Shown here: positions 4,850 through 45,198 of the stretch, in pieces
Position numbering within the stretch: the stretch's first letter is position 1
Layout of the letters: each line of letters starts with the position of its first letter
DNA from: Fibrobacter intestinalis
Lineage (GTDB): Bacteria > Fibrobacterota > Fibrobacteria > Fibrobacterales > Fibrobacteraceae
Direction: 5' to 3'
NCBI RefSeq assembly: GCF_900167415.1
Contig: NZ_FUWU01000001.1
Coordinates: 1 to 64,000 of the forward strand
Length of the DNA stretch: 64,000 nt
Position numbers and translations under genes: made by a program
Notes under the pieces: model-generated
What the model saw: the letters and a program-made list of their open reading frames with translations, nothing else
The model's database searches: none
What the model was told of the DNA's origin: nothing

Positions 4850-4870
4850 TTCCGCTTCCTATTCGATTTG

Positions 4871-4902
4871 AAAATCCCGGGTCTTGCGACTCGGGATTTT
4901 TT
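4871..4902 (+). terminator. rpsA intrinsic terminator
   Basis: A ten-base stem (4874-4883 with 4888-4897, one G-T wobble) closes on a TTGC loop and is followed by a run of six T. It starts 25 bases after the rpsA stop. Confidence 0.9.
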
Positions 4903-4951
4903 GTTGCAAAAAAACTGGCGAAAATGGATGTGAAGTTGGCGAATCTAATTC

Positions 4952-4980
4952 TAAAATTCCAAAGCGGGTTTGGAATTTTA
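4952..4980 (-). terminator. hairpin ending the minus-strand lipoprotein pseudogene
   Basis: A perfect 12-base inverted repeat (4952-4963 and 4969-4980) with a five-base loop lies 14 bases beyond the last stop codon of the minus-strand gene at 4994-5386. The stem ends themselves supply the T-rich tail, so it could work in both directions. Confidence 0.6.
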
Positions 4981-4993
4981 TTGTCGGAAACGA

Positions 4994-5386
4994 TTAAAAT
5001 TCGGGGTATTCGTTTATAGAGGATTCCGATGCTGCGGGCTGCGTTCCTTTAGCATCTAGAAATTTGATCGGGGTTGCCGAAACGGTTAGCGTGTTGATAA
5101 CTCCTATAACCGCCCAAGTGTGCTTACTGGAAATTTTGATGTCGATCAGATCGTCGCCACCGCACTGTTCCAATAAACGCCGCTTGATTTTTCGCTCACG
5201 GCTGGTGGCTCAGATGGGGATGACGTCAAAAAGGGCGAAGGATGATGCAGATGTTTCGCAAGCGGGGAGGCGGACAAAATCGCGCCCTTGGATTTGGTCG
5301 TATGAACCAAAAGAAACGGGTCTTGAAGAGCATCCCCAAAGGCAAATCGATAATAGAATGGGAAGAAGAATCCACGTCTTACGCAT
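4994..5386 (-). pseudogene. lipoprotein gene interrupted by an in-frame TGA
   Basis: The minus-strand ATG at 5386 is preceded by AGAGG with four bases of spacing. It opens a textbook lipoprotein signal peptide: Arg-Lys, a hydrophobic core and the lipobox L-W-G-C with Cys at residue 19. The frame runs 58 codons to a TGA at 5212-5210, then continues without another stop or frameshift for 71 codons to a TAA at 4994. The part after the TGA looks coding: a charged RERKIKRR stretch, then GGDDLIDIKIS and a TWAVIGVIN block. This resembles small bacterial envelope lipoproteins with a GADALIDV-like core. Inference: a recent nonsense mutation, or a read-through codon. Without read-through only a 39-residue mature peptide would be made. 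A Rho-independent hairpin follows the distal TAA, as expected for a gene of full length. Confidence 0.7.
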
Positions 5387-5468
5387 AAAACCTCTGAAAT
5401 AGAAAAACGTGCGGGCGAAATATAGTATTTAGCAATGAGTTTGTCATAATCGTGTTGATCCTAGGAAG

Positions 5469-6134
5469 TTAGCGGTGCGTGATACGGAAAAGAATCTGGA
5501 ACTTTTGGTTTGTGAAGTCATTTACATCTTGTGCCCAAATTTGCGAAATTTGCGCCACTTCAATGCCGATTGACCAAGTATCGTTTACCCACCAGTCCAA
5601 ACCCGAGCTTGTGCGCCAAGCAAGTCCAATCAATTCAAAAGAAGCATCCTTATTCAATATGTTGGAAATAGAATAGTCCAATAGGATGGCGTTTCCAAAA
5701 TGGATTCCTCGCCAAAATGTTCGAGGGTATCGGCAAGGATAAACTTCGATTCCCAAACCGCCTCCGCCGGAAAAACTGAAAACGTCTTCCCAGGTGGAGA
5801 TATCCTCGTATAGGCTCCAGTCGGCATATTTTTCGTTCCTTTCGTATGTTGTCGCCTCTAGATACCCTTGCGGCAAAGCCAAATTGAAATCCGCATAAAG
5901 GGCTACGGCGTTGGCGATGGCGCGTCCAAAGCGAAAATCCATACTGGCAAAAGAAAAACCGGAGAAAGAATGCTCCTCTTTTTGGTAAGAGGTTGTTTCG
6001 GAATACTTCGCGTTATAATAAGAAAATCCCGATCCGAAGCTGAAATAAAATCCGCGATGTTCTTTGGGATAATCCGCCAAAGCAATAGATGTCACCAATA
6101 GTTCCAACAGGCAGATTTTGAAGAAAAATTTCAT
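5469..6134 (-). CDS. secreted outer-membrane beta-barrel-like protein
   Basis: The 221-residue protein starts with a Sec signal peptide (Lys, hydrophobic core, likely cleavage after ALA near residue 20). A PKEHRGFYF segment follows, then alternating polar/aromatic strands rich in Gly, Phe and Tyr, typical of a small outer-membrane barrel. The protein ends in strand-like sequence (QILFRITHR). The ATG at 6134 lies one base after the TAA of the gene upstream. Its ribosome site (CGAGGATAAG) overlaps the end of that gene, so the two form a translationally coupled pair. That upstream gene is a clear paralogue sharing YPK-HRGFY and the C-terminal W-V-x-D region. Function unknown. Confidence 0.75.
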   Translation of the reverse strand: MKFFFKICLLELLVTSIALADYPKEHRGFYFSFGSGFSYYNAKYSETTSYQKEEHSFSGFSFASMDFRFGRAIANAVALYADFNLALPQGYLEATTYERNEKYADWSLYEDISTWEDVFSFSGGGGLGIEVYPCRYPRTFWRGIHFGNAILLDYSISNILNKDASFELIGLAWRTSSGLDWWVNDTWSIGIEVAQISQIWAQDVNDFTNQKFQILFRITHR

Positions 6135-6135
6135 C

Positions 6136-6813
6136 TTATCCTCGTGTCATACGGAACAGAAGATGAAATCCTTGGACGGCGTTCGTCAAGTCCGAAAGGG
6201 CTTCGAATTGCGGAAACGCGCGAAAATAGGAGATCCCCACGCCTAAAGAAAGCTGGTCGCTAACCCATCAGTCCTTGCCGATTTCCAAAGTGAAAGCAAG
6301 ATCGACGCTTTGAGTGTTTGTATTTATTAGAGAGGCATCAAGGCTGTAGCCGAAAGAGCCGCCCACAAAAAAACCGTTCAATGCGGAACTGGTATCGCGG
6401 AAAGGATAAACAGATGTTCCAAAGGCGACGTAGGTTCTTACAAAGGAGGCGTCACCGCTACTGCTTTCATCATCATACGTTCGGCAAATTTCATCGTCGC
6501 AATCCGAATCTCCCCATTTCGAAGAGCCTATGTAAGTTCCTAAATTGAATTGCGTGTAAAATGCGATGACATTTCCGATGCCAATACCAAAACGAAATTC
6601 CATGAGGTTTGGACTGACGCCGCTGAATTTGGCGTAGTTATCATCGGAATGCTTTTCAAAATCGATAAAGGAAACGCCGAAATTTTGGCTGCTGTAAAAG
6701 CCGCGATGCTGTTTAGGATAAAGATTTTTGACCGTTGTGGAATCGGCAAAAACGGATGCGCACAAAAAGAATACAGCTAAAAATAATTTTTTCAAACAAA
6801 TTGCTTTTTTCAT
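6136..6813 (-). pseudogene. paralogous barrel gene interrupted by one in-frame TGA
   Basis: The gene starts at the ATG at 6813 with a signal peptide (two Lys, hydrophobic core, cleavage near VFA). It shares YPKQHRGFYSS and a FRFGIGIGN segment with its downstream neighbour. The frame meets TGA at 6270-6268 after the sequence E-I-G-K-D, then continues 43 sense codons (W-V-S-D-Q-L-S-L-G onward) to a TAA at 6136. In the paralogue the same place reads L-D-W-W-V-N-D, so the TGA stands exactly where a Trp codon (TGG) is expected. The distal TAA is one base from the next ATG, so the complete reading frame still respects the operon junction. Interpretation: a nonsense change removing the last strands of the barrel, or a read-through site. 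Confidence 0.75.
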
Positions 6814-7115
6814 GAGGCACAATTTAGATAATCAGGATGTAAAATCACAGAAAAAAAATAAGAAATTTCCACACAATCCTTCACCAAATACTTGCTATTC
6901 ATTTTTTCAAAGCGAGAAATTCCTTTTCGCAAGGGGAACGCGGTTATCCGTTTTCAGTTCCAACTACCCCCTAAACACTAACTTGCAGAAGGCATTTTAT
7001 ATATAAGCCCCAAAAACAATGTAGATACAAATTTATCTGAAATTGTAGAACACTCGGATTGGCATCATCGTGTTTTTTATGAGATTTTATAGGCAAAATG
7101 TTCCGTACTGACAAC
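6814..7115. other. non-coding region between the barrel genes and the serC terminator
   Basis: This AT-rich stretch should contain the promoter of the minus-strand barrel pair. It holds one copy of a degenerate repeat (6865-6937) also found near 56.9 kb. No convincing gene or known RNA was seen on either strand. Confidence 0.5.
6865..6937. repeat. dispersed intergenic repeat, copy 1
   Basis: About 70 bases align with 56875-56945 in the same orientation at roughly 70 percent identity by eye. Shared cores are CCAAATACT, ATTTTTTCAAA and a TTTTCxxAAGGGGAA-like end. Both copies lie between genes. This copy contains a small GCGA/TCGC hairpin. Confidence 0.45.
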
Positions 7116-7148
7116 AAAAAAAGCGGACTTTCCCAAAGGAAAATCCGC
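7116..7148 (-). terminator. serC intrinsic terminator
   Basis: Read on the minus strand, GCGGA-x-TTTCC pairs with its complement (one internal mismatch) around a four-base loop and is followed by seven T. It lies 20 bases past the serC stop. Confidence 0.85.
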
Positions 7149-7167
7149 AGTGCATTTTTTACAAAGA

Positions 7168-8274
7168 TTATCCCAGAACTTTCTTTTCAAAGTCACCAAG
7201 ACAATCAACGAGAGCTTGTACGCCTTCTTTAGGCATGGCGTTGTAAATCGAAGCACGGAAACCGCCGACAGAGCGATGGCCTTTAAGCTGCTGAAGTCCA
7301 CGAGCCTTTGCAAAATCCAAGAATTCTTTGGCAAGTTCATCGTTCTTTTCCGCAGAAACGATTTCCTTGTTGAATACGAACGGAACATTCATAATCGAAC
7401 GGTCCTCTTTGGCTGCCGTACCGACGAAAATCTTGGAAGCGTCCAGAGCACCGTAAAGGAGAGCCGCCTTTTCACGGTTGATTTTTTCGATAACATCGAC
7501 GCCGCCAATATCTTTGAGCCATTTCAAAGTTCTGTTCATCACATAAACGGCGAATACCGGAGGCGTGTTGAACATATTCTGGGCATCGATATGCGTCTGG
7601 AAATTGAGCATTGTCGGGATGTTGCGGTCCACTTTGCCAAGAAGGTCTTTGCGGATAATGGAAACGGTCACGCCAGCGCAACTGATATTCTTTTGCGCAC
7701 CGCCGTAAATCATTCCGAAATCCGAAACATTGACTTTGCGAGCCAGAAAATCGGAGCTCATATCACAAACGAGATAACCGGATTTGGGCTTCGGGAAGCT
7801 GTGCCATTCCGTTCCATAAATGGTATTATTTCCGGTGATGTGCAGATATGTGGCATTATCGCTCATTTTCAAATTTTTGTCGATGTGATTGTACACGTCG
7901 GCTTTAGTGGAACAGGCGACATTCACATTACCGAATTGCTTAGCTTCTTTCAAAGCCTTGCTTGCCCAAACGCCAGTATCAGCGTAATCGGCGGTAGCGT
8001 TTTGGCCGAGAAGATTCATCGGAACCATGCAGAATAATAAGGAACAACCGCCACCCAAGAAAACGATGTCATAATTTTCGGGAATGCCCATCAGATCGCG
8101 AAGAAATTGTTCCGTTTCAGCGAACATATCTCCAATGGGCTTTGAACGATGGCTCATAGAAAGAATGCTGATTCCGCTATTTGCAAAATCCATGCAAGCT
8201 GCGGAAGCTTCTTTAAGGGCTTGTTCCGGCAGAACAGAAGGTCCTGCACTGAAGTTATAGACTTTATTTGCCAT
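7168..8274 (-). CDS. serC: phosphoserine aminotransferase
   Basis: The 368-residue PLP enzyme converts 3-phosphohydroxypyruvate and glutamate to phosphoserine in serine biosynthesis; the family also acts in pyridoxal phosphate synthesis. The N terminus VYNFSAGPSVLP is diagnostic. The cofactor lysine is K195 in GGAQKNISCAG, and SHRSKPI near residue 41 is the conserved substrate-binding segment. I start at the ATG at 8274, which has AAGGA seven bases upstream; longer frames add unrelated residues. A strong terminator follows, and the gene appears to be transcribed alone. Confidence 0.96.
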   Translation of the reverse strand: MANKVYNFSAGPSVLPEQALKEASAACMDFANSGISILSMSHRSKPIGDMFAETEQFLRDLMGIPENYDIVFLGGGCSLLFCMVPMNLLGQNATADYADTGVWASKALKEAKQFGNVNVACSTKADVYNHIDKNLKMSDNATYLHITGNNTIYGTEWHSFPKPKSGYLVCDMSSDFLARKVNVSDFGMIYGGAQKNISCAGVTVSIIRKDLLGKVDRNIPTMLNFQTHIDAQNMFNTPPVFAVYVMNRTLKWLKDIGGVDVIEKINREKAALLYGALDASKIFVGTAAKEDRSIMNVPFVFNKEIVSAEKNDELAKEFLDFAKARGLQQLKGHRSVGGFRASIYNAMPKEGVQALVDCLGDFEKKVLG

Positions 8275-44742: not shown

Positions 44743-45198
44743 ATGGAAGTATTCGGCGATTACGAATTAAAGCAGAGTAAAATTTTTCGCGACTTCGACA
44801 AGGCGTACTCCGAAGGCAAGTTGGATTATTTAAAACAATTGTTCCTTCCGTATATTTTGAACAACATTGCCGATTTTTACCAGTTTAAAAAGGAAAAACT
44901 CAAGCAATTTGCCGAAGCTCTAGATATGCACCAGCTTTTAAAACTTTACCTCTATTACAAGCAGATGCCTATCGATATGCACCGTTATATGGAAGAGCAA
45001 AGCCAGTCCATCAAAAAAGTGATTGCCAATTCTTCTAAAGAAAGGCAGACCGCTGTATCGGAATGGATTAAGCAGCACGCCGCCCGTCATCGAGATGTTG
45101 CGATTAAAAATCAATGCCTATTCTTTGAAAAAATCGCCGACCAGGTAATTCCGCCCATTGAAAAAGCTCTGCGGGAATACGAAGCGAATACAAACTGA
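44743..45198 (+). CDS. uncharacterised helical protein
   Basis: The 151-residue protein has no signal peptide or membrane segment. It is rich in Lys, Glu, Gln, Tyr and Leu and looks entirely helical, with a Leu/Tyr-rich centre (LLKLYLYYKQMP). No known domain is recognised. It sits 30 bases after the U32 gene and before a DEAD-box helicase gene in the same direction. A weak GGAG lies well upstream of the ATG. Confidence 0.65.
   Translation: MEVFGDYELKQSKIFRDFDKAYSEGKLDYLKQLFLPYILNNIADFYQFKKEKLKQFAEALDMHQLLKLYLYYKQMPIDMHRYMEEQSQSIKKVIANSSKERQTAVSEWIKQHAARHRDVAIKNQCLFFEKIADQVIPPIEKALREYEANTN

Follow-up and report, generated by a model that had tools for sequence, protein, structure and literature searches.

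An in-frame TGA at a conserved tryptophan codon in a tandem outer-membrane barrel gene of Fibrobacter intestinalis, probably a recent loss

Introduction

In the excerpted text of Belinky et al. (2021; PMC7918605) it is argued that many in-frame stop codons of bacterial genes are tolerated or leaky and that most of them persist only briefly, and the screen set out there requires that the same stop be found in two or more species. The gene described here, which we refer to as gene A, resembles the conserved in-frame stops covered by that text in having an in-frame TGA followed by a tail that is still coding-like, and differs from them in that its stop is present in one genome only. It also resembles recent strain-level nonsense pseudogenes, with a single premature stop, a frame that is otherwise intact and orthologues that are intact, although gene A is known from one strain.

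The second group of described systems with which this locus invites comparison is that of the small outer-membrane barrels. The OmpA transmembrane domain, NspA, OmpW/OprG and Ail/OmpX are all eight-stranded barrels, and the model of the gene A product has the same number of strands. A C-terminal beta-signal is described, together with an internal signal able to serve in part (PMC10945584, excerpted text).

The window referred to below is the whole stretch of 64,000 nucleotides of Fibrobacter intestinalis DNA that was analysed, and it belongs to a 3.29 Mb draft genome of 116 contigs with a completeness of 99.95% and a contamination of 0.65%.

Results

Gene A is a 225-codon frame on the minus strand (6813-6136) that begins with ATG and ends with TAA at 6138-6136, and its codon 182 is TGA (6270-6268, minus strand). 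The stop stands at the first tryptophan of a conserved K-[DE]-W-W motif, in the context EIGKD-TGA-WVSDQLSLG. Before it lie 181 codons (6271-6813, minus strand) with a predicted N-terminal hydrophobic helix and predicted strands 1-6, and after it a tail of 43 codons (6139-6267, minus strand) that would encode the last two strands (7 and 8) as well as the C-terminal FRMTRG without any more stops. Gene B, an intact tandem paralogue of 221 residues (5469-6134, minus strand), has its ATG one base past the gene A TAA; its sequence at the corresponding position is L-D-W-W-V-N-D, where gene A has K-D-TGA-W-V-S-D. The original prediction had placed the TGA exactly where the paralogue has tryptophan and had described the rest of the frame as intact up to a TAA that lies one base from the next ATG; both points are borne out, the gene being on the minus strand and having no second stop or frameshift. 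As few other codons of gene A lie one transition from TGA (two TGG and two CGA), the landing of a stop on a tryptophan codon is unremarkable. Gene B ends in THR, while TRG is common among the A and B genes extracted.

The interrupted frame is not a chance one, since the match to an intact orthologue in the genus genome G003 continues through the stop (query residues 25-225, 48% identity, E 3.4e-54). Homologues were placed in an alignment and tree of 25 rows, made up of 23 loci and the two window genes and leaving out several weak matches (including G000:C64 and G017:C46, G000 being the genome of the window) and duplicate entries for one gene. The ten A genes all lie to the same side of a branch supported at 95/97, which identifies the broken gene as the A orthologue rather than as a stray copy of a paralogue. 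The end branch of gene B in this tree is 1.69, against 0.86 for gene A, the intact gene being the more diverged. At the site of the stop 23 of 24 extracted homologues have tryptophan, always encoded by TGG, and the remaining one has phenylalanine; the second tryptophan of the pair is likewise kept in 23 of the 24, with tyrosine in the remaining one. TGG is found in all nine extracted A-clade orthologues and a stop in none, so that the stop shows no conservation across these species and, judged by the sampled homologues, is private to this genome.

The tandem pair, with both genes open, is present in four of the five other genomes of the genus (G002-G005), and the fifth (G001) has one weak match only. 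Five regions were examined for neighbours: in four (G002-G005) the rpsA-cmk side lies beside the A-B pair, as it does in the window, and the fifth (G029) consists of the A-B pair only. On the upstream side no neighbour is held in common with the G002-G005 pairs in the regions compared. Public genome contigs yielded four relatives only and no conspecific sequence, the genus comprising six genomes, and a pattern that allowed for either reading of the codon gave no match in viral contigs. Neither gene A nor gene B could be mapped onto the proteins of the excerpted text of PMC6851124. Other open barrel paralogues are present in the genome at G000:C64:45056-45562 and G000:C29:31852-32502.

The read-through protein was modelled with AlphaFold2 from a nine-row alignment (mean pLDDT 79.3, pTM 0.71), with low confidence at residues 21-33 and 108-115. 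The model consists of a helix at the N terminus followed by eight strands (38-56, 59-79, 83-102, 118-135, 148-161, 168-183, 188-201 and 213-224), and the full-length product thus models as a small eight-stranded outer-membrane barrel. Structure matches (Foldseek, VIA) were led by small outer-membrane barrels, namely OprG, OmpA, NspA, OmpW and Ail. The top VIA row was a porin associated with the Legionella Dot/Icm system (Z 20.2, 183 aligned, rmsd 4.0), and NspA (1p4t; Z 18.2, 149 aligned, rmsd 2.8), OmpA (1qjp; Z 17.2, 130 aligned, rmsd 2.0) and OmpW (2f1v_A; Z 15.5, 160 aligned, rmsd 3.4) were also matched, the sequence identity to the gene A product in these last three rows being just 6-11%. 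The product (P0001) has no Pfam, NCBIfam or PDB-sequence match; PF13505 (OMP_b-brl) matches three of the nine alignment members (best E 1.2e-4) and leaves P0001 itself unmatched. From the modelled limits of the last three strands, residue 182 falls at the end of strand 6, and termination after residue 181 would drop strands 7 and 8, the closing strand included. A barrel product without its closing strand is expected to fail to close and to be degraded.

The junction CGAGGATAAG ahead of the gene B ATG (6135-6144, minus strand) has the same layout in G002-G005; it reads CGAGGA-TAA-G-ATG in the window, and CGAGGC-TAA-N-ATG stands at the end of the A gene in all four same-genus orthologues. The GAGG within the last codons of gene A is likely to be the Shine-Dalgarno sequence of gene B. 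Selection on gene B alone would then keep it, for which reason the clean junction would not date the event. If the loss is real, there is a small caution in this: a clean operon junction does not prove that a gene is alive.

Beyond gene B, a gap of about 620 bases (4850-5468) extends to the end of rpsA; the corresponding distance is about 83-85 bases in each of G002, G003 and G004, and in G005 it is about 1140. Between 4915 and 5465 there is no genus match longer than about 33 bases. This gap may be a lineage-specific insertion or a remnant. Within it, 29 bases (4952-4980) match their own reverse complement at 90% and could form a terminator where rpsA and gene B converge. A scan of 4850-7200 with Rfam gave four matches, all under the gathering score, and promoter- and terminator-like sites did not depart from the spread given by shuffled sequences.

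Turning to the decoding of UGA, RF2 is detected over the cut-off without an internal stop, and its open frame carries what we take to be the SPF and GGQ motifs. On contig C58, which carries gene A, TGA ends 37 of the 112 open reading frames of at least 150 residues, and the base most often found after these stops is T (16 of 37), which is also the base after the gene A TGA. A pattern search, based on a motif that we take to be typical of tRNA-Trp and that would miss a tRNA far from it, gave two sites, of which one is a tRNA-Trp gene and the only one found, with anticodon CCA, A9 and G24, an anticodon stem of 5 bp and a base pair at 27:43. This gene (L047, 837-910) lies just before a short open reading frame that resembles secE, and the weaker matches to its sequence that were scanned (L057-L059) are tRNA-Met. 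Four of the other five genomes of the genus carry an identical sequence; G002 gave no match over the full length. With A9, G24, the 5-bp stem and the 27:43 pair, the tRNA is without the UGA-reading changes given in the excerpted text of PMC13092985, which also sets out what marks a code in which UGA is tryptophan; such a code was rejected on the frequency of TGA-ended frames, the presence of RF2 and the ordinary tRNA-Trp. A genome-wide search for tRNA-Sec gave eight matches, all of them short of the gathering score; ARAGORN types the four best as tRNA-Leu or tRNA-Ser, and one of the other four, on contig C22, overlaps the tRNA-Trp. The RNA 3' of the stop folds no better than shuffles (z 0.56 and 0.29). 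The proposal in the original prediction that the TGA is read through to give a full-length barrel therefore gains no positive support, RF2, TGA usage and tRNA-Trp all being ordinary, with neither a tRNA-Sec over the gathering score, nor an RNA structure 3' of the stop, nor a stop shared with an extracted orthologue. A low basal leak at the site may nonetheless occur.

Other in-frame stops were compared on the same contig. When the 602 in-frame stops with flanks of 35 open codons are ordered by codon score, the gene A stop comes fourth, so that this measure does not set it apart. Of 124 open reading frames of at least 100 residues, 28 have at least 40 open codons past the stop, and five of these 28 stops, gene A included, are TGA. 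One of the five (44743-45198) was set aside as adjoining the next gene, an RNA helicase-like frame that starts three codons on. A weak barrel match with an internal TGA at G000:C72 (E 0.0245) was also rejected, as longer frames of other phases are found there. A weak barrel homologue in G022 (E 2.2e-5) has an internal TAA.

The tail was compared with the core of the protein over the 42 aligned columns after the stop. Against its four same-genus orthologues, gene A has an identity of 0.44-0.48 for the core and 0.48-0.50 for the tail; against the five more distant ones the values are 0.39-0.43 (core) and 0.29-0.40 (tail). As control pairs of intact genes give 0.35-0.43 and 0.31-0.43 respectively, the tail would show a slight excess of change at most. 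Of positions invariant among the nine orthologues, gene A keeps seven of nine in the tail and 26 of 31 in the core. The tail identity to the same-genus orthologues would also be expected if the stop were recent, and the seven invariant positions would fit continued selection on a read-through product equally.

A simulation of neutral drift (substitutions only, transition bias 2) puts the probability that 225 codons gain no further stop at 0.13 for d = 0.10, 0.059 for d = 0.15 and 0.026 for d = 0.20; for the tail alone it is 0.44 at d = 0.20, which is a weak bound. About half of the residues differ from the nearest orthologue, a divergence far above d of 0.15-0.20, and if the gene has been neutral since its loss, that loss would have come long after this lineage parted from the other species. 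The event had been called very recent, in part because the operon junction is clean; the lack of a second stop or frameshift and the likeness of tail to core fit with this, while the argument from the junction is weak.

Discussion

Because of the position of the stop in a column of otherwise conserved tryptophan, together with the ordinary decoding of UGA in this genome, we think it probable that a recent nonsense mutation has inactivated barrel gene A, and that gene B keeps its own ribosome-binding site. In this model, a single substitution at a conserved tryptophan codon in the first member of the conserved pair would end translation after 181 residues, leaving out strands 7 and 8 with the closing strand, and the truncated product, being unable to close the barrel, would be degraded in the periplasm, while gene B would still be made. 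The loss of gene A is probably tolerated, since other barrel paralogues are intact. The stop has the look of an ordinary loss of very recent date, or of a sequence error, rather than of a new reading of the code.

The second of these, a base-call or assembly error or a polymorphism carried as a minor strain variant, is the main rival to a recent nonsense mutation; most cells of the species would then have an intact gene. We regard it as unlikely, though it deserves to be taken seriously. A draft of 116 contigs leaves room for it, as does the difference of one codon in a gene that is otherwise undamaged, whereas the high completeness and low contamination suggest a good draft and there is no direct evidence of an error.

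It is rather improbable that the ordinary tRNA-Trp decodes enough UGA to supply the cell with full-length barrel, with the stop acting as a down-regulator and the tail under selection. UGA is described as leaky, with tryptophan inserted, in the excerpted text of PMC7918605, which quotes a read-through of about 6% for a single B. subtilis reporter with normal prfB, and the tail of gene A is conserved as much as the core when compared with same-genus orthologues. Against this, the stop fails the screen described in that text, none of the nine extracted orthologues having it; the following base is the one commonest after normal TGA stops, no structured RNA element lies past the stop, and the tRNA-Trp has the ordinary features given above, unchanged in most of the genus. 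In a variant of this proposal, to which we give less credence still, the UGA would be a recently gained attenuator, read by tRNA-Trp at a few percent so as to provide a small and cell-variable dose of barrel, with the tail thereby selected.

A function of its own for the 181-residue truncated product is very improbable: the upstream frame is intact and the model has an N-terminal hydrophobic helix, but two of the eight modelled strands, the closing strand among them, would be absent. Other forms of recoding are scarcely credible, for although A-to-I editing would turn UGA into UGI, to be read as UGG (inosine being read as guanosine; PMC12255301, excerpted text), TadA editing is described in the same text as needing UACG where the site here is CUGAUGG, and selenocysteine or a reassigned code is opposed by the lack of a tRNA-Sec at the gathering score, the best matches being to other tRNAs, and by the use of TGA as a normal stop.

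Were read-through nonetheless true, gene A would be a simple natural case in which leakage at UGA sets the dose of a surface protein. If instead the recent nonsense mutation that we favour is real, a surface-protein gene has been caught shortly after its loss, with a conserved paralogue adjoining it, and the junction between the two would be clean because the ribosome-binding site of the neighbour sits in the last codons of the dead gene.
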